From the IMG/VR virus record IMGVR_UViG_3300017987_000194, positions 1-37,040 of that record: 37,040 bases of DNA. One strand, 5' to 3'. The notes under the pieces were generated by a model that saw nothing but the letters and a program-made list of their open reading frames with translations, was not told the origin of the DNA and searched no databases. Positions 27,703-34,528 of this stretch are shown one piece after another. Each line of letters opens with the position of its first letter. The first letter of the stretch is position 1. Origin of the DNA: a virus. The position numbers and the translations under genes were made by a program.

Positions 27703-28029
27703 ATGGCAGGGTTTAACCGTATTCACTTGGTCGGGAACCTTACGCGGGATCCGGAGTTGCGATATACGGCGAAAGACGTAGCCGTTTGCGACTTTGGGAT
27801 CGCGGTCAATGAAAAGCGCAAGGGACAATCCGAGACGTTGTTCATCGACGTAACGACGTTCGAGAAAAGCGCGGAGTCCGTTGCGGAGTATCTTGTCAAG
27901 GGGCGAACGGTCTTGGTCGAGGGCCGCTTGGTCAAAGAGGAATGGACAAGCAAGGACAACCAACGCCGCTCGCGTCTCAAGATCATAGCAAGCGGCGTTC
28001 ACTTTATCGGGCGGGCGATCAATGATTAG
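27703..28029 (+). CDS. ssb: Single-stranded DNA-binding protein (108 aa)
   Basis: Clear OB-fold SSB: FNRIHLVGNLTRDPELRYTA at the N-terminus, VCDFGIAVNEKRKG, then LFIDVTTFEKSAESVAEYLV, KGRTVLVEGRLVKEEW and RLKIIASGVHFI. It protects single strands during replication and recombination. Bacterial SSBs end with an acidic DDDIPF-like tail that recruits partners; this one stops after the OB fold (IGRAIND). So it either uses other contacts or delegates recruitment to its neighbours. Four bases of its stop region overlap the next start (ATGATTAG). Confidence 0.9.
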   Translation: MAGFNRIHLVGNLTRDPELRYTAKDVAVCDFGIAVNEKRKGQSETLFIDVTTFEKSAESVAEYLVKGRTVLVEGRLVKEEWTSKDNQRRSRLKIIASGVHFIGRAIND

Positions 28030-28579: not shown

Positions 28580-29413
28580 ATGGAAAAACAGGACTTGCCA
28601 TACTTGCCACTATGGATCAACGATCTAATGAGCGACAGAAAAGCGATCTGTATGACGGCGGAAGAGTTCGGATCGTATATGTTGCTTCTGATTTCGCAAT
28701 GGAAAGACGGTCCGATCGATCCGGAGGACATGGACGGGATCGGGCGGTGCAAGGTAACGCGTCGCGTCCGGCGTTGCTTTCCGAAGGGAGTAAACGCAAA
28801 GCTCGAACGGGTCCGGGCGGAAGCTTTGGCCGTGATCGAGGGCCGAAAGGACAGGGCAAGAGCGGCGGCGGGGGCGCGGTGGGGGAATGCGGAAGCAATG
28901 CCGGAGCAATGCCCGGGCAATGCTCAAGCATTGCGCAAGCAAAGCGGAAGCAATGCCGGGGCAATGCTTGGCGATGCCATACCAAGAACAAGACCAAGAC
29001 CAAGAACAAAAGATCTTACTCCGAAAGCCCAAAACAATACGGGTTCCAAGGGGAAAAGCGGCAAGCCGACCAAGGCGCAACGGACAAAGGGGATCAAATT
29101 GGCCGGGACGTTTTGGGATATTGGTACTCTTTACAAGATATTTTCTTGGGCAGGATTAGAGAAGCCGGAGGATCTGTTTTGGCTTGCATGGAATTGCAAG
29201 GGAGCAACCGGAGCAAGCGAGCATGGGTTTTCCGTAGTAACGACAAAGCTTATGGAGTTGAAAGCGTCGGAAAAGAAAGGACAGAAGATCGACAACCCGG
29301 GCGGCGCTTGCGTTGTCGCGTTGCGCGATAGCGGACAGAAGGTAAACGACAAACTATACACTTCCGTTTGTAAGGTAATCACAGAAGCCAAGAAAACGAA
29401 GGGATCCAAATGA
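28580..29413 (+). CDS. DUF1376-type replication initiator-like protein with embedded origin (277 aa)
   Basis: The N-terminus fits DUF1376 (YdaU-like) proteins, which sit at the position of lambda O: LPYLPLWINDLMSDRKAICM, MTAEEFGSYMLLLISQWKDG, PIDPEDMDGIGRCKVTRRVR, then a helix ending in RARAAAGARWGNAEA. The central part (residues about 102-135) is an 11-residue repeat (NAEAMPEQCPG, NAQALRKQSGS, NAGAMLGD) that is the readout of an 11-bp DNA iteron array. After a Lys/Thr/Arg-rich linker a C-terminal domain follows (GTFWDIGTLYKIFSWAGLEK). Expected job: bind its own gene's iterons and load host helicase. Confidence 0.8.
   Translation: MEKQDLPYLPLWINDLMSDRKAICMTAEEFGSYMLLLISQWKDGPIDPEDMDGIGRCKVTRRVRRCFPKGVNAKLERVRAEALAVIEGRKDRARAAAGARWGNAEAMPEQCPGNAQALRKQSGSNAGAMLGDAIPRTRPRPRTKDLTPKAQNNTGSKGKSGKPTKAQRTKGIKLAGTFWDIGTLYKIFSWAGLEKPEDLFWLAWNCKGATGASEHGFSVVTTKLMELKASEKKGQKIDNPGGACVVALRDSGQKVNDKLYTSVCKVITEAKKTKGSK
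28884..28977 (+). repeat. 11-bp iteron array, predicted replication origin
   Basis: The heptamer GCAATGC or a close variant recurs at an 11-bp period: GGAATGC 28884, GCAATGC 28895, 28906, 28917, the inverse GCATTGC 28928, GCAAAGC 28939, GCAATGC 28950 and 28961, GCGATGC 28971. Eleven bp is about one helical turn, so all sites face the same side of the DNA. Three units make 33 bp, or 11 codons. The array lies inside the initiator gene, as lambda's origin lies in gene O. Confidence 0.75.
28978..29045 (+). other. A-rich region next to the iterons, possible unwinding element
   Basis: Directly after the iterons comes a purine-rich, A-rich strand (AAGAACAAGACCAAGACCAA and similar up to about 29040). 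It is clearly richer in A/T than the surroundings and shows strand asymmetry. In lambda an AT-rich unwinding element sits at the same place next to the iterons. It also encodes the basic linker of the initiator. Confidence 0.5.
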
Positions 29414-31792: not shown

Positions 31793-32027
31793 GCGCGATC
31801 GGAAATACTGCGCAAATTGCGGAGAGAGCGCGTTTCGATTGGTCGTCGAGGTCGAGCTTGTGGAAGTTGGGATCGGCGGCAACTATCCGGAGCTAATGGA
31901 CGGCCACAAACTCCCGCTTTTGGTTTGTCTTGGATGCGGACAGGAGACGCGGCTCGTCGAGTTCGAGCCGGAGCCCTACACGTTGAAAGAGCGGCACGGG
32001 GCCGCACGGACGGATCATAATCTGTAA
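31785..32027 (+). CDS. Small zinc-ribbon protein (80 aa)
   Basis: A standard C4 zinc ribbon: CANCG near residues 9-13 and CLGCG near 48-52, with beta strands between (FRLVVEVELVEVGIGGNYP). The C-terminus is basic and disordered. It overlaps both neighbours, so it belongs to the same operon. Role unknown; such proteins may bind RNA polymerase or nucleic acid. Confidence 0.65.
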   Translation: MIRRDRKYCANCGESAFRLVVEVELVEVGIGGNYPELMDGHKLPLLVCLGCGQETRLVEFEPEPYTLKERHGAARTDHNL

Positions 32028-32041
32028 TGCAAGGGGACAAG

Positions 32042-33646
32042 ATGAAAGCTTGGACGGTTACGGCAACTCACGCGGAAGCGTCGATCGTCGTATGGGCCGC
32101 GAATCGTAGCGACGCGAAAGCCCTTGCGCGGACGACCGATTGGCTATGCGACGCGCCTTGGATCGATCTCCGAGTAAAGCGGGAGCCAAGGGCGGACGGA
32201 AAGCGATTGCTCCCGGACGTCGCGGACGGTTCGACGCGCAACGATAGCGAGTTGTTTTGGTCGCTTGGTTGGCATTGCATAATTGACGACGACGTTCCTT
32301 GTAAGCGTTGCGAACGCTTCTCTTGGCCGGACGTCCCGGCGTCGAAGATCGGGGACGACGGGGTTTGCGTTGCTTGCCGACTCGAAGAGGAAGGACCGGA
32401 AGCGCCGCAACGGAACTCGATCATCCTAGGGGATTCGTTGGGCGTATTGAAAGAGATTGACGATTGCTCAATTGACGCGGTGATCACGGATCCGCCGTAT
32501 GGGTTGGCGTTTATGGGGAAGCGTTGGGACTATGACGTTCCAAGCGTCGAGCTATGGCGGGAGACGTTGCGGGTTCTCAAGCCCGGGGGATACCTCTTGT
32601 CCTTCGCCGGGACGCGGACGCAACATAGGATCGCGGCGGCGATCGAGGATGCGGGGTTCGAGATCCGCGATATGATCGCATGGATATACGGAAGCGGCTT
32701 CCCGAAATCCCTTGACGTCTCCAAGGCGATCGACAAAGCAAAGGGGGCGGAGCGGGAGCCCGGGCGCAAGCGCGGCGGAGCCAAGAACAACGCGGACAAC
32801 TCTGAAGCCGCGTCGTTTGTCAAGGGCGCGGTCGGATATTCTCCAGAGTTCGAGGAAACGCGACCGGCAACCGAAGAGGCGAAAGCTTGGGAGGGATGGG
32901 GGACGGCGCTTAAACCGGCGCTTGAGCCTATCACGGTTGCGAGGAAGCCGCTTGCGGGGACGGTCGCGGCGAACGTTTTGGAGTATGGGACGGGGGCGCT
33001 TAACCTCGACGCGTGCCGCGTTGGGTTGGACGGAATCGAAGAACATAAGACCGAGGCGCGATCGGGGTTAGGGCGAAACGTCTACGGCAAGTTCGAGAAC
33101 GCGGAGCGGGAGCCAAGGGAGATCCCGCGTTACGATAGCAAGGGGAGGTTCCCCGCCAACTTGATCCATGACGGGAGCCCGGAAGCGGTCGAGGGGTTCC
33201 CCGTCGACGGCAAGGAATCCGCCGCCCGCTTTTTCTATACGGCGAAAGCCAACAAAGCGGAGCGGGACGCGGGCTTGCGCGGGTTCGTAAGGACAAGCGC
33301 CGGAGAGATCACCGGGGGAAGGAAAGAGGGATCGGCGGGGCTCAACTCCCCCCGGGCCGGAGCGGGCCGGACAAGCGGGGCGCGGAACTTTCATCCGACA
33401 GTAAAGCCGCTCGCGCTTATGGCCTATCTTGTCCGGCTTGTAACGCGCAAGGGAGGACTGGTTTTGGATCCATTCGCCGGGAGCGGGACGACGTGCAAGG
33501 CGGCGGTTCTTGAGGGGCGGGAGTACATAGGGATCGAGCGGGATCCGGAGTACGCGGAGATCGCACGGGCGCGGGTTGCTCACGCGGATCCGCTCGACAC
33601 GGTCGCGCAAGAGTGCGGGTCGGGCGTTATACGCCCGCTGTTTTGA
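32042..33646 (+). CDS. DNA methyltransferase, N6-adenine type, with N-terminal phage domain (534 aa)
   Basis: A beta-class DNA amino-methyltransferase: the catalytic motif TDPPYG lies near residue 150 and the SAM-binding motif LDPFAGSGTT near 475, the reversed order that defines the beta class. DPPY favours adenine N6 over cytosine N4. A large insertion between the motifs (about 200-450, including GFPKSLDVSKAIDKAKG) should hold target recognition. The first 125 residues form a separate domain (WTVTATHAEASIVVWAANRS, IDLRVKREP, then a C4 zinc motif CKRC/CVAC) like a stand-alone phage protein family. No restriction enzyme gene is seen. ATG at 32042 has AAGGGG upstream; 32027 is an alternative. 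Confidence 0.85.
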   Translation: MKAWTVTATHAEASIVVWAANRSDAKALARTTDWLCDAPWIDLRVKREPRADGKRLLPDVADGSTRNDSELFWSLGWHCIIDDDVPCKRCERFSWPDVPASKIGDDGVCVACRLEEEGPEAPQRNSIILGDSLGVLKEIDDCSIDAVITDPPYGLAFMGKRWDYDVPSVELWRETLRVLKPGGYLLSFAGTRTQHRIAAAIEDAGFEIRDMIAWIYGSGFPKSLDVSKAIDKAKGAEREPGRKRGGAKNNADNSEAASFVKGAVGYSPEFEETRPATEEAKAWEGWGTALKPALEPITVARKPLAGTVAANVLEYGTGALNLDACRVGLDGIEEHKTEARSGLGRNVYGKFENAEREPREIPRYDSKGRFPANLIHDGSPEAVEGFPVDGKESAARFFYTAKANKAERDAGLRGFVRTSAGEITGGRKEGSAGLNSPRAGAGRTSGARNFHPTVKPLALMAYLVRLVTRKGGLVLDPFAGSGTTCKAAVLEGREYIGIERDPEYAEIARARVAHADPLDTVAQECGSGVIRPLF

Positions 33647-34466
33647 TAGGGGCTTGGAATGGTGGGGGGGAGTTTTCGTGAGTTGGCATTGTTCGCGGGC
33701 GTTGGTGGAGGATTGCTTGGATCGCTCGCGCTTGGGTGGGAGACGATTTGCGCAGTTGAGATCGATCCGTTCTGCCGATCTGTATTGTGCAAAAGACAAA
33801 ACCAAGGATTACTCCCGGTTTTTCCGATTTGGGACGACGTGCGAACCTTTGACGGAAAGCCTTGGCGCGGACTTGTTGACATTGTTTCTGGAGGCTTTCC
33901 CTGTCAAGACATATCTTGCGCCGGAAAGGGGGACGGATTGCAAGGAAAACGATCCGGGCTATGGTACGAAATGGAGAGAATCGTTCGCGACGTTCGACCG
34001 CGTTTCGTTTTCGTGGAAAACTCCGCAGCGCTCATTGTTCGGGGGTTACAAGACATACTCGGATCGCTTGCCAAATTGGGGTTCGATGCGGAATGGGGAG
34101 TTGTATCTGCGGCGGACGCCGGAGCTCCCCATTTGCGAAAGCGCGTTTGGATCCTTGCCTACTCCGGCGGCGACGCATTACGGGACGAACCGAGGGGGGA
34201 GAGCGGGGCGCTCCGGCAAGGTCCGACCAAGCCTAGAGACAATGGCAAGGGCGGGGATGCTTCCGACTCCCAACGCGTGCGACGCCACAAGGGGAAGTCC
34301 GGAAACGGACGCGGACAAGAAAGCGAGGGGCGCGAACCCGGGCAGGAGCTTGATCGATGTTATTGGCGGCCCATTAAACCCGGACTTTGTGGAGTGGCTT
34401 ATGGGTTGGCCGGTCGGATGGACAGACTTAGAGCGATCGGAAATGGGCAAGTTCCACAATCCATGA
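33576..34466 (+). CDS. Overlapping +1 frame within the C5 methyltransferase gene (up to 296 aa)
   Basis: The frame shifted by +1 relative to the cytosine methyltransferase stays open for nearly 300 codons. From about 33825 it shows a coherent protein-like sequence: FRFGTTCEPLTESLG, FEAFPVKT-like AFPVKTYLAPE, SWKTPQRSLFGG, NWGSMRNGELY, LPTPNA and LNPDFVEWLMGWPVGWTDLE. Similar sequences are, to my knowledge, widespread in phage proteins annotated separately. It has no good ATG; TTG 33576 or TTG 33654 would be starts. It could be a real second product, or a by-product of conserved methyltransferase codons. Treat as a candidate only. Confidence 0.35.
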   Translation: MLTRIRSTRSRKSAGRALYARCFDRGLEWWGGVFVSWHCSRALVEDCLDRSRLGGRRFAQLRSIRSADLYCAKDKTKDYSRFFRFGTTCEPLTESLGADLLTLFLEAFPVKTYLAPERGTDCKENDPGYGTKWRESFATFDRVSFSWKTPQRSLFGGYKTYSDRLPNWGSMRNGELYLRRTPELPICESAFGSLPTPAATHYGTNRGGRAGRSGKVRPSLETMARAGMLPTPNACDATRGSPETDADKKARGANPGRSLIDVIGGPLNPDFVEWLMGWPVGWTDLERSEMGKFHNP

Positions 34467-34528
34467 CGATTGCATATAGGCTATTGAGAGAGAGAGTCCA
34501 GGAAGGGAGGCGCAATGGCAACATTTAG
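33659..34528 (+). CDS. C5-cytosine DNA methyltransferase (289 aa)
   Basis: All main motifs appear in order: LALFAGVGGG (motif I, residues 9-18), AVEIDPFCRSVL (II), FPIWDDVRTF (III), GGFPCQDIS with catalytic Cys82 (IV), FVFVENSAAL (VI), RKRVWILAY (VIII), and IGNGQVPQSM near the C-terminus (IX-X). It methylates C5 of cytosine in a short DNA target. The target-recognition region between VIII and IX is short and Arg/Gly-rich, so specificity cannot be guessed. ENS replaces the usual ENV. The gene follows the adenine methyltransferase closely; together they suggest protection from host restriction. Confidence 0.9.
   Translation: MVGGSFRELALFAGVGGGLLGSLALGWETICAVEIDPFCRSVLCKRQNQGLLPVFPIWDDVRTFDGKPWRGLVDIVSGGFPCQDISCAGKGDGLQGKRSGLWYEMERIVRDVRPRFVFVENSAALIVRGLQDILGSLAKLGFDAEWGVVSAADAGAPHLRKRVWILAYSGGDALRDEPRGESGALRQGPTKPRDNGKGGDASDSQRVRRHKGKSGNGRGQESEGREPGQELDRCYWRPIKPGLCGVAYGLAGRMDRLRAIGNGQVPQSMTIAYRLLRERVQEGRRNGNI

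Follow-up and report, generated by a model that had tools for sequence, protein, structure and literature searches.

The most probable reading of positions 28884 to about 29045 of virus record IMGVR_UViG_3300017987_000194 is a phage replication origin that lies in the linker codons of a winged-helix initiator gene and acts by the mechanism proposed below; we put its probability at roughly 0.8. The record was analyzed over its full 37,040 bp, which we call the window. As to type, the best reading is an origin resembling those of lambda, SPP1, and RepA_N systems, in a little-described single-turn form whose specificity code appears to be readable. The iteron array, the tandem tract, selection at the DNA level, a family-wide 11-bp period, and the pairing of protein motif with iteron are all observed directly in the sequence. 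Coordinates of the features are given in Table 1.

Table 1. Features of the putative origin and its replication module in the window
Feature	Position	Strand	Basis
Single-strand DNA-binding protein gene, upstream, same module	27703–28029	+	SSB PF00436, E = 3e-29
Initiator-like gene, 277 aa (P0001)	28580–29413	+	Weak DUF1376 match, viral-initiator profile, annotation of relatives
DUF1376-like N-terminal domain core (residues 7–57), codons	28598–28750	+	Pfam and A2 profile; AlphaFold model of a relative
Long helix (residues 73–104), codons	28796–28891	+	AlphaFold, pLDDT 87–92 for residues 71–100
RW specificity motif RARAAAGARWGN (residues 92–103), at long-helix end	28853–28888	+	Motif-iteron pairing across families
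Iteron array, nine GCAATGC-like sites	28884–28977	+	Site scans, Tandem Repeats Finder, codon shuffles
Predicted disordered linker (residues 105–164), codons; holds array and tract	28892–29071	+	AlphaFold, pLDDT about 50, residues 111–160
Tandem tract, ACCAAG-like, period 6, 4.8 copies; candidate DNA-unwinding element	28981–29009	+	Tandem Repeats Finder
Predicted helical C-terminal region (residues 165–277), codons	29072–29410	+	AlphaFold, moderate to low confidence

The array begins inside the final codons of the long helix and then occupies linker codons. Its sites are GGAATGC at 28884, GCAATGC at 28895, 28906, and 28917, GCATTGC at 28928, GCAAAGC at 28939, GCAATGC at 28950 and 28961, and GCGATGC at 28971; six match GCAWTGC exactly, and three carry one mismatch. 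The original prediction had them recurring every 11 bp, which holds for the sites themselves and for seven of the steps, the final step being 10 bp. Tandem Repeats Finder reports a period of 11 with 7.5 copies between 28886 and 28967. One site had been described as inverted, a description that reflects only the central A/T of the near-palindrome, since GCAWTGC is palindromic except at that position. Relaxed B-DNA has 10.5 bp per turn; at 11-bp spacing, each site therefore drifts by about 17°, and the sites in the window do not lie strictly on one DNA face. The suggestion that an initiator would coat one face is thus only approximate at a spacing of 11 to 12 bp. Across the whole window, GCAWTGC occurs at 18 sites compared to 4.4 expected (maximum of 10 among 100 shuffles). 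When the encoded protein was held fixed, six or more GCAWTGC sites arose within the gene in 1 of 5,000 synonymous codon shuffles, and the observed four neighboring pairs of sites at 11 or 12 bp were reached in none of 5,000. The tract follows the array after a gap of 3 bp, in the same order as in relatives. The A-rich stretch originally noted downstream of the array does extend to about 29045, but it includes a separate tandem repeat, the 6-bp ACCAAG unit at 28981 to 29009. GC skew is uniformly positive across the window, with no turning point, and is uninformative with respect to an origin.

The only Pfam match of P0001 up to an E value of 10 was DUF1376 (PF07120; residues 7 to 57, 19.2 bits, E = 0.0016). 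This score is below the curated cutoff of 30.1 bits, which leaves P0001 formally outside the family. A profile of 80 viral DUF1376 initiators (set A2) matched P0001 with a full-sequence E value of 1e-12 in a one-sequence search; the alignment covers residues 8 to 105, runs through the A..RW helix, and ends on ARAAAGARWGN, placing the protein within A2. Relatives are annotated as replication initiation protein or as DUF1376/DUF4373. Searches with blastn, tblastn, and a peptide scan found no close relatives of P0001. In the AlphaFold model, an ordered N-terminal domain leads into the long helix, which is followed by a disordered linker and then by a C-terminal region that is helical and possibly serves to recruit a helicase. 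In a relative that is 33% identical to P0001 across the N-domain core region (L472), the N domain (mean pLDDT, 85.5) is modeled as a winged helix, with three helices and a beta wing, that continues into a long helix. Among the best fold matches of this domain are winged helices from ORC2, DnaD, and plasmid Rep initiators (Z = 5 to 6.5). These values fall short of the level that would indicate kinship and are suggestive only, as a Z of <8 may reflect the common winged-helix arrangement. A fold search with the full P0001 model returned no meaningful match (best Z, 3.9), and a profile search of solved structures gave no significant match. No helicase or loader gene was recognized among the neighboring genes scanned beside the window initiator gene. 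Downstream of the replication module are adjoining genes for N6/N4 and C5 DNA methyltransferases (32027 to 33646 and 33659 to 34528).

Relatives were sampled protein first: 240 viral genes were chosen by their N domain alone, with arrays disregarded, giving 172 nonredundant genes from three N-domain families, A1 and A2 (both DUF1376-like) and A3 (DUF4373/Lin1244-like). A tandem tract with a period of 5 to 9 lies downstream of 35 of 46 arrays in relatives (median distance, 4 bp) and upstream of none (0/46), compared to 9 of 138 codon-shuffled controls with a tract. The composition of these tracts is 52% A. Tracts following A1 arrays (e.g., L339 and L347) often have a period of 7 (peptide NHKPITINHKPLT), with a strong DNA-level signal at distances of 7, 14, 21, and 28, while other families have 5- or 6-bp tracts. 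In four contigs (L029, L077, L098, and L109), the array is outside any ORF and the initiator retains the matching helix; these initiators either stop right after the helix (ending in VAGRKGAKARWGNDRR) or keep the helix without a linker array. Such intergenic arrays, away from the initiator gene, retain their tract. Among 75 sampled next genes, 10 encode DnaB-like helicases and 7 encode IstB/DnaA-type ATPases, and named or annotated relatives adjoin DnaC-like loaders or DnaB. Six loci (L010, L028, L053, L088, L093, and L097) carry intergenic GCAATGC arrays with a agaatagaaaag-like tract, in each case followed downstream by a similar small, conserved gene. The DNA fetched around these arrays contained no initiator.

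The general idea of an iteron origin inside an initiator gene is already known. In lambda-type phages, the origin is situated midway along the O gene and combines iterons with an AT-rich region; in Stx phages, additional iterons lengthen O by 13 residues (PMC7466680). The likeness of the window to lambda and Stx O with ori-lambda is one of architecture, in that the putative origin is placed near the middle of its initiator gene, with iterons beside an AT-rich region. Lambda iterons are inverted repeats of about 18 to 19 bp in four to six copies, whereas the window holds nine 7-bp cores on an 11-bp lattice and lacks the four to six iterons of about 18 bp that define the lambda O family. In SPP1, gene 38 contains oriL, which comprises direct repeats and a DNA-unwinding element and is bound by gp38 (PMC6316719). 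SPP1 differs in having a second origin, oriR, and the likeness to gp38/oriL is drawn from the published description. In the RepA_N system of pSK41, the Rep boxes occupy the center of rep and are bound by a winged helix at the N terminus of the protein, and the origin encodes the central linker; in the natural chimera pPR9, the N domain and origin were replaced together by a phage-like module (PMC5703833). The pSK41 system differs in its four Rep boxes and its Pfam family. Plasmid Rep N domains rank among the closest fold matches to the model of the DUF1376 relative, with a Z of about 6; P0001 itself has no RepA_N domain (PF06970), and the fold resemblance is confined to the relative. In its position, DNA-level selection, and predicted disorder, the window array has the arrangement of a gene-internal iteron origin, with tandem sites in the part of an initiator gene that encodes the linker. 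By analogy, replication would start at this array. Judging from sequence comparison, the same layout, with helically spaced, protein-matched sites inside an initiator-like gene, recurs in hundreds of other phages, where it probably marks the replication start. Culturable phages with such sites include Lactobacillus phage LBR48 and Leptolyngbya phage Lbo-JY16.

The strongest rival to an origin is an autoregulatory operator without origin function, in which the protein would bind the array in its own gene and block transcription or time the replication genes, with the origin elsewhere. The sites do have the clear appearance of DNA-binding sites for the encoded protein class, and binding within the gene could act as a roadblock. 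We consider an operator unlikely, as it leaves unexplained the conserved, one-sided tract, the replication genes next to the initiator, and the intergenic arrays that keep their tract, and the same architecture is an origin in lambda, SPP1, and pSK41.

The origin mechanism that we propose begins with an initiator made up of a winged helix and a long C-terminal helix ending in A..RW, the end of which would contact GCAATGC. One protomer would bind per 11-bp turn; a dimer per iteron is also conceivable because the site is a near-palindrome. The array would then nucleate a continuous protein rod along the DNA, and a rod on an 11-bp lattice, compared to 10.5 bp, would underwind the DNA and load torsional strain. 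The adjacent A-rich tandem tract would open next, and the C-terminal region, with neighboring factors, would recruit the replicative helicase. Binding, unwinding, helicase loading, and origin activity are the steps that we infer here.

We assigned each gene a type according to the motif with which its long helix ends, a motif encoded just upstream of the array. The motifs pair with iterons as follows: A..RW with GCAATGC, AGKxS with GTTSAAC, and GGRP with CTGGGTT. Helically spaced GCAWTGC was found in 67 of 121 RW-type genes versus 1 of 51 others (P = 7e-13), GTTSAAC in 4 of 11 AGKxS-type genes versus 0 of 161 others (P = 9e-6), and CTGGGTT in 7 of 29 GGRP-type genes versus 0 of 143 others (P = 2e-6). 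The classes were first noticed on the A1 to A3 sample, so these P values are exploratory, and a scan for GTTSAAC serves as the independent test. In that forward test, made from DNA alone (three GTTSAAC at 11-bp steps), 36 of 48 distinct ORFs had AGKxS encoded upstream and none had RW alone, and several of the ORFs lacking AGKxS carry visible variants of the motif. GCAATGC arrays had RW in 41 of 52 cases and AGKxS in 2 of 52; both sets of ORFs were counted after strict de-duplication. Random 60-residue control windows from the same loci gave 2 to 3 of 41, with either motif in about 5 to 7%. In each of the three N-domain families, RW goes with GCAWTGC, and within A1 the iteron changes with each motif. 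The link could reflect shared descent, though RW recurs in three N-domain families, and the best reading is that the motif at the helix end helps set the iteron sequence as a readable code. Hybrid helices (EAGKQGAAKRWGK or similar; L474, L486, and L489) go with variant sites containing CATTTGC/CAAATGC, a hint that single residues may shift the iteron. Likely further classes (L353, L383, L292, and L299 to L301) combine GCGTGAC sites with an arginine-rich helix or have arrays of CTGTCCC or GCGTTAC at a spacing of 11/22 bp. GCAATGC might instead be read by a DNA-binding protein of the host, as phages and prophages from many bacterial phyla share this heptamer array. The tracking of iteron sequence with the motif of a phage protein, and the use of different iterons within one N-domain family when the motif differs, make a host factor very unlikely.

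Comparing DUF1376 genes for similar arrays had been suggested as a check on the original prediction, and it found them well beyond expectation. An exact 7-mer repeated at a distance of 11 in the linker-coding region was present in 82 of the 172 viral genes, compared to 12.4 ± 3.4 in codon shuffles, i.e., in only about half of the sampled relatives. At a distance of 22, such repeats were found in 56 of 172 genes compared to 7.8 in codon shuffles, and at distances of 10 and 13 the same 172 genes showed no excess over codon shuffles. With GCAWTGC-pair genes removed, the distance-11 repeat was still found in 33 of 97 genes (4.6 expected), and prophage genes picked by Pfam family from cellular genomes had it in 14 of 48 (2.1 expected), with GTTCCAAC, GTTCAAC, TCAACCA, GCGTTAC, and CTGTCCC as their other iterons at 11 bp. 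The single-turn period had been called unusual; within the initiator family, 11 bp is instead the rule whatever the iteron sequence, and on these comparisons the period is the constant and the heptamer the variable. GCAWTGC totaled 346 sites in the 172 genes versus 102 after protein-preserving codon shuffles, and 54 of 172 genes had a pair at 11 or 12 bp versus 6 expected (maximum of 13 over 200 shuffle runs). These sites fall in all three codon frames (68/71/26) and are used in both orientations.

Selection on the linker peptide NAxAMxxQC, with the DNA repeat as a by-product, would be the protein-level explanation. The 11-residue repeat described at the outset (NAxAMxxQCxx) is indeed present in the window linker, and 12-bp (four-codon) arrays such as APSNAPSNAPSNA occupy the same position in relatives. 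We nevertheless read the array as a DNA element under DNA-level selection, not a protein repeat, because protein-preserving codon shuffles lose the 11/12-bp pairs. Sites in every frame and both orientations, a linker predicted to be disordered, and peptides that are wholly different between iteron classes argue the same way, and the four contigs with intergenic arrays make protein-level selection hard to invoke. The protein-repeat explanation was rejected on the codon shuffles and these four contigs, and we regard it as highly improbable. The original prediction of iterons inside an initiator gene was to fail if relatives kept the protein repeat and lost the DNA repeat. The opposite was found: DNA repeats exceed what the protein requires, and in the four contigs the DNA array persists although the protein repeat is missing. 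The core of the prediction thus came through each test applied to it, this one included.

Exact GCAATGC triplets at 11-bp steps formed at least 119 stretches in viral contigs. Among those listed, about 100 are in ORFs of ≥120 aa, mostly initiator-like with an A..RW helix upstream, and about 18 are in no ORF of ≥120 aa. Triplets at 12-bp steps formed 80 stretches, 51 of them behind an RW motif, so a step other than 11 bp is also allowed; at 10-bp steps there were 8 stretches, none behind an RW motif. Exact triplets at 11 bp in cellular genomes formed 62 stretches, 15 of which were behind an RW motif. Neutral 11-bp tandem duplication without function could be argued from the perfect cellular repeats outside initiator genes (47 of 62 not behind an RW motif) and is similarly improbable, given that most array-bearing phage ORFs are initiator-like with an RW motif, that spacers diverge while the heptamer stays, and that the enrichment also appears in samples picked independently of arrays. 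Four DUF4373-type loci (L311, at gene positions of about 178 to 216, L257, L262, and L264) have an extra GCAATGC array within N-domain codons. An unrelated ORF without an initiator N domain (L067, 3217 to 3245) also contains a GCAATGC array.

The family extends to YdaU (DUF1376) of the Escherichia coli K-12 Rac prophage (NC_000913.3, 1421119 to 1421976; locus L698, 6120 to 6977), the gene for which is followed by ydaV. YdaU shares the N-domain family of the window protein and has an AGKxS helix (AAGKASVQAR), and the linker-coding region of its gene contains sites resembling GTTCAAAC (GTTCAAA/GTTTGAA at gene positions of about 393, 426, and 450); it differs from the window protein in belonging to another specificity class. 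An active origin, oriJ, is known in Rac (PMC3945230); the texts searched did not give its location relative to ydaU. Nor did the literature searched describe iterons or an origin in DUF1376/DUF4373 genes, the single-turn lattice, its conservation across iterons, or the pairing of helix and iteron. We judge the odds to be somewhat better than even that these genes represent a very large class of phage origin that has hardly been described. In such a class, the short specificity helix, its 7-bp single-turn iterons, and the tract would lie side by side in a single gene and be exchanged together as a cassette; the initiator would assemble into a rod, each 11-bp turn holding one unit; and the iteron could be predicted from the helix residues, so that both origin and specificity could be read from sequence alone. 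The origins of most phages are unmapped, and here they would be predictable from sequence in many DUF1376 or DUF4373 (Lin1244) genes. A short protein motif that predicts its DNA site would provide a testable protein-DNA code, and the arrangement may explain why initiator and origin travel together in mosaic phages and makes the ydaU repeats a candidate site for oriJ.
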